From Chloroflexota bacterium (GTDB lineage: Bacteria; Chloroflexota; Anaerolineae; Caldilineales; Caldilineaceae), in contig QEUW01000360.1 of the NCBI GenBank assembly GCA_003577005.1, positions 1 through 7,723 on the forward strand: a DNA stretch of 7,723 bases, read 5' to 3'. This document shows, in pieces, positions 2,317-7,723 of this stretch (positions are counted from its first letter, which is position 1; each line of letters opens with the position of its first letter). The notes under the pieces are model-generated. The model saw nothing but the letters and a program-made list of their open reading frames with translations, searched no databases and had not been told where the DNA came from. The translations under genes and the position numbers were made by a program.

Positions 2317-2619
2317 ATGGAACCCAATACCGCCATCCTGATCGCCCTCCTCGTACTGGCCCTTGTGGCGATCACCGCCCTCATCCTCTTTCGCCAACGC
2401 GCCAGCGCTGAGATCGACACACCCCTCGGCAAGGTGCGCGTGCAAGGCGACAACACCACCGCCCCGGCCCCACCGCCCGGCGCCGCCACCACCGAACAGG
2501 CGCAGGCCGGTGGCAACATCAGCGCCGCGGCCAAAACCGGAGGCGACGCCACCGTGCGCGACGCCAAAGTCAAGGGCGACATCTCCGCCACGGTCGAGAA
2601 CCCCGCCCCAAAAGCCTAG
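2317..2619 (+). CDS. Small membrane-anchored protein; likely N-terminal part of a frameshift fusion
   Basis: The protein has 100 residues. Residues 5-25 (TAILIALLVLALVAITALILF) are one strong transmembrane helix, followed at once by a basic RQR, so the rest is probably cytoplasmic. A Pro/Ala-rich linker (TTAPAPPPGAATTE) leads into a glycine-rich periodic segment, GGNISAAAKTGGDATVRDAKVKGDISATVEN. The ATG at 2317 has GGAG 6 bases upstream; a TTG at 2299 would add six residues and is less likely. The last codons, CCC GCC CCA AAA GCC TAG, contain a -1 slippery heptamer, and a hairpin covers the stop. A -1 shift would join this segment to the STAND NTPase downstream. Unshifted, it ends as a short membrane protein. 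I know no named family for it. Confidence 0.72.
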   Translation: MEPNTAILIALLVLALVAITALILFRQRASAEIDTPLGKVRVQGDNTTAPAPPPGAATTEQAQAGGNISAAAKTGGDATVRDAKVKGDISATVENPAPKA

Positions 2620-2638
2620 CCCCCGCTCAACTGGGGGC
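2607..2638 (+). promoter_or_regulatory. Candidate programmed -1 frameshift site (slippery heptamer and hairpin)
   Basis: CCCAAAA at 2607-2613 is read in the zero frame as C CCA AAA, the X XXY YYZ form of a -1 slippery site. A 5-base spacer follows. GCCCCC (2619-2624) then pairs perfectly with GGGGGC (2633-2638) across an 8-base loop. The zero-frame TAG is at 2617-2619. After slipping, reading resumes at AGC (2613) and stays open to 4304. Use in vivo is inferred. Confidence 0.6.
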
Positions 2639-2774
2639 GTCCACCATCACCAACACAACGGCGCAAACCAATATCGCCGTCACCGGCTACGTAGGCGAAG
2701 GCGCGCAGGCCGTCGCCATCGGCGCCCACATCGCCCAGGTCAACCACATCTATCAGCACACCCGCCCCCAACCG

Positions 2775-4304
2775 GTGGACGAGGCCACCCTGCGCGCCGC
2801 CCTCGCCCAACTCGACGCCCTGCCCATCGATACGCTCCCGCCAGTGTCGCCCCTGCCGCCCGGCTCACGGCTGGACCTGAGCCCCAACCCACTCTTCGTC
2901 GGTCGTGAATCCGAGTTGCGCACCCTCGCCCGCACGCTCAAAGGGGGCGAAACCATCGCCATCGGCCAGGTACAGACCGCCGCCGCCACCGGCTGGGGCG
3001 GCATCGGCAAAACCCAACTGGCCGCCGAGTTTGCCCACCGCTATGGCTGCTACTTCGCCGGCGTCTTCTGGCTCAGCTTTGCCGACCCCGCCAGCATACA
3101 CGCCGAGATCGCCACCTGTGGCGGACCCGGCCACCTCGACCTGCGCCCCGACTACGGCGCCCTCAAACTGGAGGACCAACTGCGCCTCGTGCTCGCCGCC
3201 TGGCAGGACGACCTGCCCCGCCTGCTCATCTTCGACAACTGCGAAGACCCGGCCCTGCTCACCGCCTACCGCCCCCGCACCGGCCACTGCCGCATCCTCC
3301 TCACCAGCCGCCACGCCACCTGGGAACGCACCCTCAACGTCACCCTCCTGCCCCTCGAAACCCTCCCCAGAGCCGAAAGCATCCGTCTGCTCCTGAAATT
3401 TTTGGATGGACACCAATCCACGACCAATTCTCCCAACGAGTCCCCCCTCTCCAACCTGGAGAGGGGGACAGGGGTTGAGGTTCTCGACGCTATCTCATCC
3501 GAACTCGGCGACCTCCCCCTCGCCCTCCACCTGGCCGGCAGCTATCTCGACCGCTACCGCCACACCGTCACGCCCGAGGCCTACCTCGCCCAGTTGCGCA
3601 GCCCGCAGATCCTGCAACACCGCTCGCTCCAAATGGGCGGCCATTCGCCCACCGGCCACGAACAGAACGTGGCTCGCACCTTTGCCCTCTCCTACGACCG
3701 GCTGGATGTCAAGGATCCTACCGACGCGCTCGCCCTGCGCCTGCTTGCCCGCTCCGCCCACTTTGCCCCTAACCTGCCCATCCCGCGCTCTCTCCTGCTC
3801 GCCAGTGCGGACCGGGCCGAGGACGACACCGCTGCCGCCGATGCGCTGACGAGGCTGGCCGGGCTGGGGCTGATTGAGGTGGAAGTTGACGGCGCGGTGC
3901 GTCTGCACCGGCTCATCGTCCTCTTTGTACAAGGGGTAGCAACCGATACTGAGGCGCAAGACGATGTGGAGGGGGCGGTAATCAGCGCTGCCTACAAGCT
4001 CAACACGGCAGGGTATCCGGCTGCCCTTCTGGCCTGGCAGGTCCATCTGCGTTATGTCACCGACCAGGCGCTCACCCGGCAGGATGAACGCAGTGCGACG
4101 TTAAGCAGCAATCTTGGCTACCACCTTAAGGCTGCCGGCGACCTGGCGGGGGCCAGACCCTACTACGAGCAGGCGCTGGCCATCCTCACAGCGCGACTCG
4201 GACCCGACCACCCCAACACGCAGACCGTGCGCAACAACCTCACCGCACTCCTGGCCGACCTGCAAGAACAGCAACCACCGGATGATCCGCCCGAAAAACT
4301 GTAA
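2775..4304 (+). CDS. NB-ARC/TPR STAND NTPase, probably translated as a fusion from 2317
   Basis: This is a signal-transduction ATPase of the STAND/NB-ARC class. Numbered from the GTG at 2775 (509 residues): FVGRESELRTL at 41-51 marks the domain start. GWGGIGKT at 73-80 is the P-loop, LLIFDN at 150-155 Walker B, and LLTSR at 175-179 the sensor. GDLPLAL at 245-251 is the GLPL-type motif and RLHRL at 376-380 the MHD-like site. Residues ~443-497 form one full TPR and part of another, a short array for this class. Residues 211-236 are an insert caused by a palindromic repeat in the gene. The GTG at 2775 has no ribosome binding site. The same frame is open from 2412 and strongly coding from about 2640 with no start codon, so the real N-terminus probably comes from the gene at 2317 by -1 frameshift (662 residues in total). 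STAND proteins often sense phage and trigger abortive responses; that role here is inferred. Confidence 0.85.
   Translation: MDEATLRAALAQLDALPIDTLPPVSPLPPGSRLDLSPNPLFVGRESELRTLARTLKGGETIAIGQVQTAAATGWGGIGKTQLAAEFAHRYGCYFAGVFWLSFADPASIHAEIATCGGPGHLDLRPDYGALKLEDQLRLVLAAWQDDLPRLLIFDNCEDPALLTAYRPRTGHCRILLTSRHATWERTLNVTLLPLETLPRAESIRLLLKFLDGHQSTTNSPNESPLSNLERGTGVEVLDAISSELGDLPLALHLAGSYLDRYRHTVTPEAYLAQLRSPQILQHRSLQMGGHSPTGHEQNVARTFALSYDRLDVKDPTDALALRLLARSAHFAPNLPIPRSLLLASADRAEDDTAAADALTRLAGLGLIEVEVDGAVRLHRLIVLFVQGVATDTEAQDDVEGAVISAAYKLNTAGYPAALLAWQVHLRYVTDQALTRQDERSATLSSNLGYHLKAAGDLAGARPYYEQALAILTARLGPDHPNTQTVRNNLTALLADLQEQQPPDDPPEKL
3443..3479. repeat. Palindromic repeat inserted inside the STAND gene
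   Basis: CCCCCTCTCCA (3443-3453) and TGGAGAGGGGG (3457-3467) form a perfect 11-bp stem with a 3-base loop, followed by the tail ACAGGGGTTGAG. A sibling with the same plan, including the GGGGTTGA tail, lies at 7464-7499. Intergenic repeats of this kind are common in Chloroflexota and cyanobacteria. Here it is in frame and encodes SPLSNLERGTGVE, interrupting the stretch between the NB-ARC sensor and GLPL motifs without breaking the frame. Confidence 0.7.
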
Positions 4305-4337
4305 GCAAGTTGTCAGTTTCCTGACCTTCTACATCTG

Positions 4338-4346
4338 TGCTATACT
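4338..4346 (+). promoter_or_regulatory. Extended -10 promoter ahead of hsdR
   Basis: TGC followed by TATACT (4341-4346) matches an extended -10 element. No good -35 lies at 16-18 bases; TTGTCA at 4310-4315 is 25 bases away, which is too far. Transcription would start near 4353, soon after the STAND stop codon. Confidence 0.45.
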
Positions 4347-4352
4347 ATTCCC

Positions 4353-4508
4353 AACAAAAATCGCCGGACAGGGGATGGCACACCCCTCCGGCGCAGTACC
4401 CACTGCTGAACACCCAGCAGCAGGTTGTGGCTCCCAGTTTACCACACCATCTGCCAGTTGCACACTCTCAGCCGTGGGCATTGCCCTTGTTGAGGGTGTT
4501 TTTCTTTT
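4353..4508 (+). ncRNA. Candidate structured leader or small RNA upstream of hsdR
   Basis: Between the extended -10 at 4341 and the T-run ending at 4508, three hairpins can be drawn. CGCCGG (4362-4367) pairs with CCGGCG (4388-4393), continuing as AGGGG with CCCCT around a two-base bulge, for 11 pairs in all. CTGCTG (4403-4408) pairs with CAGCAG (4415-4420). A terminator-like stem lies at 4462-4499. The region is non-coding: the frame open from 4337 gives implausible protein. I do not recognise a known riboswitch, 4.5S, 6S or tmRNA pattern. It may be an attenuated hsdR leader or an independent small RNA, or a chance cluster of repeat hairpins. Confidence 0.35.
4462..4508 (+). terminator. Intrinsic terminator-like hairpin 17 bases before the hsdR start
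   Basis: ACACTCTCA (4462-4470) pairs with TGAGGGTGT (4491-4499), nine pairs with one G-U. Its loop contains a second stem, GGGC (4476-4479) with GCCC (4483-4486). TTTTTCTTTT follows at 4499-4508. ACACTC at 4509-4514 could pair instead with GGGTGT (4494-4499), which would destroy the first stem. It may terminate the STAND transcript or attenuate hsdR. Confidence 0.5.
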
Positions 4509-4525
4509 ACACTCAAGCGATTACC

Positions 4526-7366
4526 ATGCCCAATCTCACCGAGGCGCAGACCCGCCGCCAGCTGATCGACCAGGCGCTCGCCCGCGCCGGCTGGGACCCC
4601 ACCAACCGCACGCTCGTGGGGCAAGAGATCCCCGTCGACGGCGCCGACCCCCAGGCCTGGCAGACGCTGCAGAGCCAACTGCGCAAACTGGCGCAACAAG
4701 GCGTCCCCTATCACACCAACCTGCCCGCCGGCATCAGCGACTACGTCCTCTATGCCGACAATGGCGAGATCCTGGCCGTGGTCGAGGCCAAACGCACCAG
4801 CGTGGACCCGCGCATCGCCCAGGCGCAGACCGAGTTCTACGTCAGCCACATCGAGCGACGCCAGAGCTTTCGCCCCTTCGCCTTTATGACCAACGGCTAC
4901 GATATCTATTTCTGGGAGGTCGGCTACGCCAACAAACGCCTCGTCTCCGGCTTCTTTACGCCCCAAGACCTGCGCAACCTGCTCCACATCCGCCGCCACG
5001 GCACGCCGCTGACCCAGGCGCCCATCGACCCGCAGATCGTCGACCGCGACTACCAGATCGAAGCCATTCGCCGCGTCAGCGAGGCCTTTGCCGGGGGCAA
5101 ACGCAAGGCGCTCCTGGTCATGGCCACCGGCACGGGCAAGACCCGCACCGTCATGGCGCTCATCGACCTCTTTCTGCGCACGCAACAGGCGCAGCGCATT
5201 CTCTTTGTGGCCGACCGCGACGCGCTGGTGCGCCAGGCCATCGGCGAAGGCTTTCAGGCCTTTCTGCCCAACGAACCCTGCACCCGCATCGTCACCCACG
5301 CCGTCCACACCAGCACCATCCAGCGGCTCTATGCTGTCACCTTGCAGACGCTCAGCAACTGCTTTGAACACTTCTCGCCCGCTTTTTTTGACCTCATCAT
5401 CTTTGACGAGGTCCACCGCTCGATCTTCAACAAGTGGAACGAAGTGCTGCGCTATTTCGATGCCCGCCTGGTGGGGCTGACCGCTACCTCGGCCGAGTTC
5501 ATCGACCGCAACACCTTTCTCGAATTCGACTGCACCGACGGCACGCCCACCTTCCTCTACACCTATGCCCAAGCCATCCAGGACGAATACCTGGTGGACT
5601 ACAATCTCTACCTGGCCAAGACGCGCTTCCAGCGCCGGGGCATCCGCGGGGTGGACCTCTCCGAGGAAGAGCGCAACATCCTCATCGAGCAGGGCATCGA
5701 CCCCGACGACCTCGATTACAGCGGCACCCACCTGGAAACCCGGGTCAGCAACAAAGACACCCTGCGCCAGCAGTGGGAAGAGATCCTGGAGGTCTGCTAC
5801 AAAGACCGCTCCGGCCAGCTCCCCGGCAAGACCATCGTCTTCGCCATGACCCAGGAGCACGCCCTGCGTCTGCTCGAAACCTTCGAGGAGATGTACCCGC
5901 AATTTCCCGGCCTGGCGCAGATGATCACCCACACTTCCGACTACAAGGGCCAGGCCATCGAAAAGTTCAAAAAAGAGGATCTGCCCCGTATTGCCATTTC
6001 GGTGGACATGCTCGACACCGGCATCAACGTGCCCGAGGTGGTCAACCTCGTCTTTATGAAACCGGTGCAGTCACGCATCAAGCTCGAACAGATGATCGGC
6101 CGCGGCACCCGCCACGAGTCTACCTGCAAGCACTTCGAATGGCTGCCCAATGGCGAGAAGAAGGACTTTCTCATCATCGACTTCTGGGAAAACGATTTCA
6201 ACCAGCCGGCCGATAAGGCCGTGGCCCAGAGTCTGCCCGTCCTGGTCACGCTCTTCAACACCCGGCTCGACCAGCTTGCCGAGTACCTGCACAACCAACA
6301 GCACGCCGCGCCCAGAGGGCACCCGCAAAGTGTCGTCGCCAAGCTGCGCGGCCAACTGGCGCTCATCCCGGTCGATTCCTTCTCCGTGCGCCGCATCTAT
6401 CCCGAAATCCAGCACGTTTGGGAAGAGAGCTTCTGGCTCTACCTCACCCAGGACAAGCTCGATTTTCTCCGGCTCAAGGTGGGGCCGCTGTTGCGCTACG
6501 CCCCGCCCACCGACGTCGAGGCCGCTACCTTCACCAGCAAGGTCGAGCGTCTCAAGCTGCAGATCCTCACCGGTCGCGCCACCACGAGCACGGTGCAGTC
6601 CATTGCCGAGGATGTCAGCCGGCTGCCCACTTTTGTCTTTGACGACCCGCACCTGGCCCAGGTGGCCCAACGCTGTCTCAGCCCGGCGCTGGCCACGGCC
6701 ACCCCCGCCCAGTTGGACGAGGTCGGCGAGCGGCTGGCCCCGCACATGAAGAATCGCCGCGCTACTCCCAACAGTTTTCTGGTTCTCGACCTGCCCGATT
6801 TTGTCGAAACGCGCGGCTATATTATCCTGACCCGGCGCAACGAAAAGGTCTATGTGGACGACTACCGCCGCCGCGTCGAGGAGCGCATCCTCGACCTGGT
6901 CGCCGGCCATCCCACCATCGTCGCCATCGAGCGCGGTGAAGCCGTCAGCGACGGGCAGCTCATCGACCTGGAGCGCACCCTACGCCGCCAGTTGACCCGC
7001 GACGATCTCGAACTCTCGGAACTCAACATCCGCAAAGCCTATGCCGTCAAAGTCGATAGCTTTCTGGCCTTCCTGCGCCACCTCTTTGCCCTCGACGGTC
7101 TGCCCGACTACCAGGAGATCGTCGAGCGCCAGTTTACGACCTTTCTCGCCGCCCACCCCTACACGGCAGACCAGGTGCGTTTTATCCGCGCCGTCAAAAG
7201 CGTGCTCCTGCGCCAACGCCGCCTCCACAGCGCCGACCTCTACGAACCACCCTTCACCCGCTTTGGCCAGGACGCCGTCGACCGCCTCTTCCAACCCAAC
7301 CAGGTGCAAGAGATGCTCATCTTCGCCAACCAACTCGCCATCGAGCAAACCACAGGCGGCTTGTAA
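4526..7366 (+). CDS. hsdR: Type I restriction-modification system R subunit (EcoEI-like)
   Basis: The protein has 946 residues, counted from the ATG at 4526. Residues ~8-160 are the nuclease domain. Asp72 (GISDY), Glu87 and Lys89 (VVEAKR) give the PD-(D/E)xK site, preceded by VGQEIPVDG. The SF2 translocase motor follows: Walker A ATGTGKT at 200-206, DEVH at 294-297, GLTAT at 317-321, and motif VI QMIGRGTR at 522-529. The C-terminal ~170 residues, with RQFTTFLAAHPYTADQVRFI and FTRFGQDAVDRLF, match the EcoEI R C-terminal domain that docks on the methylase core. With HsdM and HsdS the subunit translocates DNA and cleaves far from unmethylated sites. Key residues appear intact. The frame is open upstream to 4337, but those 63 codons cover hairpins and a terminator; homology-like sequence starts at 4526. 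No Shine-Dalgarno sequence is evident. hsdM follows 219 bases downstream. Confidence 0.95.
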   Translation: MPNLTEAQTRRQLIDQALARAGWDPTNRTLVGQEIPVDGADPQAWQTLQSQLRKLAQQGVPYHTNLPAGISDYVLYADNGEILAVVEAKRTSVDPRIAQAQTEFYVSHIERRQSFRPFAFMTNGYDIYFWEVGYANKRLVSGFFTPQDLRNLLHIRRHGTPLTQAPIDPQIVDRDYQIEAIRRVSEAFAGGKRKALLVMATGTGKTRTVMALIDLFLRTQQAQRILFVADRDALVRQAIGEGFQAFLPNEPCTRIVTHAVHTSTIQRLYAVTLQTLSNCFEHFSPAFFDLIIFDEVHRSIFNKWNEVLRYFDARLVGLTATSAEFIDRNTFLEFDCTDGTPTFLYTYAQAIQDEYLVDYNLYLAKTRFQRRGIRGVDLSEEERNILIEQGIDPDDLDYSGTHLETRVSNKDTLRQQWEEILEVCYKDRSGQLPGKTIVFAMTQEHALRLLETFEEMYPQFPGLAQMITHTSDYKGQAIEKFKKEDLPRIAISVDMLDTGINVPEVVNLVFMKPVQSRIKLEQMIGRGTRHESTCKHFEWLPNGEKKDFLIIDFWENDFNQPADKAVAQSLPVLVTLFNTRLDQLAEYLHNQQHAAPRGHPQSVVAKLRGQLALIPVDSFSVRRIYPEIQHVWEESFWLYLTQDKLDFLRLKVGPLLRYAPPTDVEAATFTSKVERLKLQILTGRATTSTVQSIAEDVSRLPTFVFDDPHLAQVAQRCLSPALATATPAQLDEVGERLAPHMKNRRATPNSFLVLDLPDFVETRGYIILTRRNEKVYVDDYRRRVEERILDLVAGHPTIVAIERGEAVSDGQLIDLERTLRRQLTRDDLELSELNIRKAYAVKVDSFLAFLRHLFALDGLPDYQEIVERQFTTFLAAHPYTADQVRFIRAVKSVLLRQRRLHSADLYEPPFTRFGQDAVDRLFQPNQVQEMLIFANQLAIEQTTGGL

Positions 7367-7585: not shown

Positions 7586-7723
7586 ATGCTCACCGATCCC
7601 AAACTCAAATCACAAGTCGACCAACTCTGGGACAAACTCTGGTCCGGCGGTCTCACCAACCCCCTCCACGCCATCGAGCAACGCTCCTTCCTGCGCTTTC
7701 TCAAACGGCTCGACGACCAGGAG
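7586..7723 (+). CDS. hsdM: Type I restriction-modification system M subunit, N-terminal part (cut by window end)
   Basis: The first 46 codons read MLTDPKLKSQVDQLWDKLWS, then TNPLHAIEQ and FLRFLKRLDD. This is the start of the HsdM N-terminal helical domain: short family members open with xQxDxLWxxLWxGGhxNPL and a following hxFLhFhKRLDD. The rest, including the SAM-binding and NPPF catalytic motifs of the N6-adenine methylase, lies outside the window. HsdM methylates the recognition site and forms the complex core with HsdS. It sits downstream of hsdR on the same strand, separated by repeats, so it may have its own promoter. The ATG at 7586 immediately follows the heptamer array. Confidence 0.88.
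   Translation, partial: MLTDPKLKSQVDQLWDKLWSGGLTNPLHAIEQRSFLRFLKRLDDQE

Follow-up and report, generated by a model that had tools for sequence, protein, structure and literature searches.

How is the STAND-type NTPase of this locus translated, when the first ATG, GTG or TTG in its reading frame is GTG 2775 and another open reading frame (ORF) runs into it from upstream? The window, the whole 7,723-nt stretch that was analysed (contig QEUW01000360.1 of a Chloroflexota bacterium, family Caldilineaceae), holds these features at the junction:

2317..2619, + strand: zero-frame ORF, a 100-aa membrane anchor by its translation and its relatives
2607..2613, + strand: slippery heptamer C CCA AAA in the zero frame (CCC AAA A in the -1 reading)
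2617..2619, + strand: zero-frame stop codon TAG, 3 nt after the heptamer
2619..2638, + strand: GC hairpin, probable stimulator, of 7 bp (six G-C, one G-U) with a 6-nt loop and a 5-nt spacer
2607..4304, + strand: -1 frame from the slip site, encoding a 565-aa STAND-type NTPase with TPR
2646..2774, + strand: N-terminal stretch, aligned with the beginnings of many NTPase homologues, without ATG, GTG or TTG in frame
2991..3014, + strand: P-loop GWGGIGKT, read by eye in the translation
4095..4268, + strand: TPR_12 match, residues 497-554 of 565

An earlier note on this DNA had described the zero-frame heptamer with a stop codon 3 bases past it, a GC stem behind a 5-base spacer, and a -1 frame open from 2412 to 4304 without ATG, GTG or TTG before GTG 2775, and had given the length of a fusion product as 662 residues. 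The heptamer and the TAG were found as described, translation confirmed the open frame and its missing start codons, and a fusion at the heptamer comes to the first 97 anchor residues plus 565. RNAfold paired 2619-2625 with 2632-2638, and the hairpin has an energy of -12.8 kcal/mol.

Sequence comparison makes it very likely that the two ORFs are a single gene decoded by programmed -1 ribosomal frameshifting, and that this decoding is conserved. Aided by the GC hairpin that begins 5 nt downstream, the tRNAs on CCA and AAA would move back onto CCC and AAA. A share of the ribosomes would stop one codon further on and release the 100-aa anchor, and the others would continue to give the 662-aa anchor-NTPase fusion. 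The anchor has a hydrophobic helix at about residues 6-25, followed by a basic RQR and by Gly-rich repeats, and its reading frame ends in GCC CCA AAA GCC TAG; a Pfam search gave no match above cut-off. Under the positive-inside rule, basic residues after a helix stay cytoplasmic, and the NTPase would then lie in the cytoplasm. The free anchor and the tethered NTPase would then share the membrane, with the shift rate setting their ratio.

The -1 product matched TPR_12 (E 8.4e-9; 35.9 bits vs. a cut-off of 30.1), and its NB-ARC match of 19.2 bits was below the cut-off of 23.5. The sole match among solved structures was the kinesin light chain TPR. The protein database holds 1905 homologues at E ≤ 0.001; the window NTPase is 45-62% identical to the best 120 of them, resembling other STAND NTPases with TPR, and the lengths are similar (P0034, 527 aa; P0108, 537 aa). 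Those N-termini of the homologues that were inspected come from their own frame; the window protein would take its N-terminus, together with a membrane helix, from a different one.

Taken within the window alone the signal is weak, since a CCCAAAA is expected about once per window (1.04 in the shuffled window) and since the NTPase relatives start near ATC 2646. The folded 84-nt stretch has a z of -2.87, and of 272 other positions sampled from the two frames, 6% were followed by an equally strong hairpin. Rfam gave no match within the window at E ≤ 0.1. The signal exceeds chance only because it is conserved in relatives.

The homologues' starts bring in the alternative of two coupled genes, in which ribosomes stop at 2619 and restart at the non-standard ATC 2646 with GGGGG (2633-2637, 8 nt upstream of ATC) as binding site. 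Many of the best 120 homologues have their own Met about 80 residues before FVGR, matching ATC 2646, and an ATG-started NTPase adjoins or overlaps the anchor stop in the distant relatives L046 and L048. L030 also has an ATG overlapping the anchor stop. Coupling explains neither why the heptamer is conserved nor why conservation of the -1 coding frame sets in at the heptamer, and we consider it unlikely. A separate gene with an odd start near ATC 2646 had at first been favoured; it was demoted by the heptamer and -1 frame found in L018, L027-L033 and L035.

Relatives were sought through the anchor. Its nearest database proteins are four (P0123-P0126; 84-97% identity, 100-104 aa), which end in PKA, PKA, PKV and PKADPPA. 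Searches around the genome with L017 turned up the anchor in 1 of 46 family members, in 10 of 396 genomes of the class with the first alignment as query, and in 13 of 396 with the second (the earlier ten and three more). A draw of 400 genomes from the phylum gave three, all at previously known loci, and narrower searches around the anchor matches (1/5, 3/12, 2/20 and 4/25 genomes) added none. The total is 14 genomes besides the window. No relatives were found in viral contigs or plasmids, or in the genome that holds L017, a contig which stops within the NTPase gene.

A zero-frame C CCA AAA near the anchor stop is present in 9 of the 14 other genomes, making ten loci with the window. These nine anchors are 30-38% identical to that of the window, and they are not all independent, because G237, G247 and G307 belong to one family and G060 and G165 to one order. 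The stop follows the heptamer by 3 nt in the window, L027, L028, L030 and L032, by 15 nt in L029, L031, L033 and L035, and by 18 nt in L018. The frame that is open behind the heptamer is the -1 frame in all ten loci. It has no ATG, GTG or TTG within 20 codons of the heptamer in seven of them; the other three have an ATG at codon 3 (L030), a TTG at codon 8 (L018) and an ATG at codon 16 (L033). Upstream, the -1 frame is closed within 0-3 codons of the heptamer in 5/10 loci.

The heptamer is absent in 5 of the 14 relatives, and given these the frameshift could have arisen from a coupled gene pair. In L046 and L048 the ATG of the NTPase lies 5 nt behind the anchor stop or overlaps it. Close relatives with a proper start and no slippery site had been named beforehand as a refutation; such an arrangement occurs in these two of 14, both distant, and the signal is kept in nine. 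In L034 the anchor is frame-broken and in L036 its tail has diverged, both without slip signal. The fifth, L047 (L060), encodes a distant anchor fused in frame to the effector-associated domain EAD7 in a protein of 183 aa (53.6 bits vs. a cut-off of 32). It is the one in-frame fusion found. The earlier note had also named, as possible support, relatives that encode the anchor and the NTPase as a single frame, and here the result was negative: region 1-140 of the fusion matched none of 2989 database candidates at E ≤ 0.01. L030 (= L051) combines the slip site with an ATG overlapping the anchor stop, and so could use either route.

A pseudogene or sequencing error, with one base missing or added around 2607 in what would be a single fused gene, is extremely unlikely. 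A frame-broken anchor (L034) and an interrupted -1 frame (L018) do exist among the relatives, but the same arrangement recurs in nine other genomes, which we take as already refuting this reading; the anchor end is common to four database proteins, and the 2989 candidates contained no single-frame fusion.

Across the ten loci, CCA makes up 48 of 392 proline codons and AAA 124 of 223 lysine codons. At the slip site itself, all ten loci use these two codons. The CCA share of proline codons is below 10% in seven loci and reaches 28, 32 and 47% in L049, L052 and L050. The synonymous-site sums of log10 P, with pseudocounts, were -9.6 for CCA and -3.0 for AAA, values that overstate the effect because the ten loci were picked out of 15 for carrying the heptamer.

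We compared pN/pS between frames in two pairs of loci, leaving out the first three codons of the -1 reading. For L051 vs. L057 the ratio was 0.37 in the -1 frame over 53 codons (0.88 and 2.49 in the other frames), and for L054 vs. L055 it was 0.48 over 36 codons (1.50 and 1.06). In both pairs tested, purifying selection acts on the -1 reading beginning at the slip site. L057 carries ATA at the ATG of L051 and the peptide is still conserved, a point that coupled translation of two genes does not account for.

The pattern CCCAAAAGCNTRRNCCCC, built from the loci with the stop at +3, was run on the 396 class genomes and gave five matches. Four are the known loci, recovered by design; in the fifth, TGG replaces the stop and the match is antisense to a 256-codon open frame. 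None of the matches listed belonged to the reversed pattern.

With a start allowed from +5 to +10, the best stem begins at +5 to +8 in all ten loci. Against the background of the same loci, Fisher p was 1.4e-8 for the stem score and 6e-5 for the folding energy; L018 (both measures) and L032 (energy) were at background level. The expectation that relatives conserve both heptamer and hairpin was borne out for the heptamer, with less support for the hairpin. When the rule for hairpins in PMC4066793 is applied at sizes of at most 40 nt, 7 of 10 loci including the window qualify, at a background of 2-46%, and L049, L051 and L056 do not. MAFFT placed no gaps, leaving the 3' stem arms out of register, and the arms hardly vary; we therefore claim no covariation.

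PMC4066793, in the portion covered here, counts C_CC.A_AA.A among 18 motifs whose shift rate in E. coli exceeds 0.10% when no stimulator is present, ranks V_VV.A_AA.R with the most efficient shift motifs, and puts the start of stimulatory structures 5-8 nt downstream. The genes it treats, such as dnaX, IS3-type transposases and phage genes, likewise have an X_XXZ_ZZN heptamer near a stop and a GC hairpin a few nt downstream, and as in IS3 the fusion predicted here is the longer product. By number, most bacterial -1 frameshift genes in that portion are from insertion elements and phages. The window gene differs from these in that it is not a mobile-element, phage or polymerase gene and that one anchor precedes several unrelated C-terminal parts; no transposase domain was found by Pfam in the window -1 product or the anchors. 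Transcriptional slippage at CCCAAAA, in which mRNAs of altered length join the frames, would result in the same fusion protein. The run here has only four A, vs. the A runs above 7 or T runs above 8 named in the part of PMC3711429 covered, and the heptamer follows the tandem X_XXZ_ZZN scheme of signals that act on the ribosome (PMC4066793, same portion), which makes slippage by the polymerase very unlikely.

The reading frames behind the slip site encode different proteins:

Window: -1 product of 565 aa, TPR
L049 (G171): 993 aa, HATPase_c_4 + NB-ARC + TPR
L051 (G165): 569 aa, NB-ARC + TPR
L053 (G194): 760 aa, NB-ARC just above cut-off + TPR
L052 (G362): 915 aa, NACHT + FGE-sulfatase
L054 (G307): 923 aa, NACHT + FGE-sulfatase
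L055 (G247): 841 aa, FGE-sulfatase
L050 (G237): 227 aa, no Pfam match; hydrophobic stretch by eye (transmembrane protein)
L056 (G039; = L018): ended by an in-frame TGA at 116 aa; P-loop by eye, all Pfam matches below cut-offs
L057 (G060): contig ends after 62 codons; no match

Because the -1 products differ between loci, the anchor and the slip site are the constant part. The frameshift interpretation of the earlier note, made for one gene, is in this respect supported and widened. The -1 products of L052, L054 and L055 end in FGE-sulfatase, which a NACHT above cut-off precedes in two. At L056:1340 (L018) the -1 frame is broken by TGA after 116 codons and is open again behind it, through decay, error or other causes. 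PADLOC gave no matches for the window NTPase, the anchor, L050, L054 or L055; it matched L049 to TPR and weakly to short-Argonaute-partner models, L051 and L053 to TPR and two other weak names, and L052 to one weak match.

A two-gene membrane conflict system with EACC1 is similar in having a constant small 5' protein with one TM segment and a variable 3' partner that includes STAND NTPases (PMC7159879, portion covered). A caspase or cyclase domain is the usual beginning of its 3' protein, and the system was described there for actinobacteria and proteobacteria; the main text uses the word 'frameshift' 0 times. At E ≤ 1e-5, Pfam matched no caspase or cyclase start in the ten -1 products. Pfam contains an EACC1 model, which gave no match at E ≤ 1 to any of the 13 anchors compared. 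Among the open-access titles and abstracts listed, none dealt with frameshifting in bacterial STAND or NACHT genes. There was no NTPase, NB-ARC or TPR in the covered part of the PMC3711429 main text, no NTPase or 'chloroflex' in the first 300,000 of 475,107 characters of PMC5009743, no NTPase, 'chloroflex' or NACHT in the covered part of PMC10885494, and no 'frameshift' in that of PMC8195603.

These comparisons are best explained by conserved programmed -1 frameshifting, through which one unchanging membrane anchor would tether a varying set of partners, STAND-type proteins and others. The conserved signal sits in NLR-like (STAND/NACHT) genes, where it would join one anchor to several unrelated C-terminal parts. 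Membrane tethering, a set product ratio and an immune role are what we infer, and a plausible use, in this defence-type neighbourhood, is as a STAND sensor or effector bound to the membrane. More tentatively, the cassette of anchor, C CCA AAA, stop and GC hairpin might be a reusable membrane adaptor for interchangeable NLR-like or other proteins at a ratio fixed by frameshifting; surplus anchor might act as partner or brake, and disturbed translation, e.g., in phage infection, might shift the ratio and trip the system. If the frameshift reading is true, gene callers that begin at the first ATG, GTG or TTG overlook the true N-terminus of such proteins and their membrane tether, and one can test directly how tethered and free forms are balanced in a bacterial NLR-like system.

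The surroundings in the window are as follows:

720-1184: HTH_17 protein, upstream, toxin-antitoxin-like
1320-1595: UPF0175, upstream, toxin-antitoxin-like
1588-2076: DUF3368, upstream, toxin-antitoxin-like
4526-7366: type I restriction HsdR-like gene (HSDR_N, ResIII, EcoEI_R_C), directly downstream
7586-7723: start of an HsdM gene, downstream, after the HsdR-like gene

Together, HsdR, the HsdM start, UPF0175, DUF3368 and HTH_17 form a defence-type neighbourhood, which is context for an immune role and not proof of it. An ORF starting at 1188, between the HTH_17 and UPF0175/DUF3368 genes, resembles by eye a cut-off PIN-type gene. The spacer between NTPase and HsdR (4362-4510) has hairpin-like repeats by eye, without Rfam match. 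L017, from the MAG Caldilineaceae bacterium CHL12, is identical at 229 of 230 nt (L017 1-230) to window 4217-4446. Past the NTPase gene it carries a different helicase-like ORF in place of the HsdR of the window, which looks like island turnover behind the cassette.
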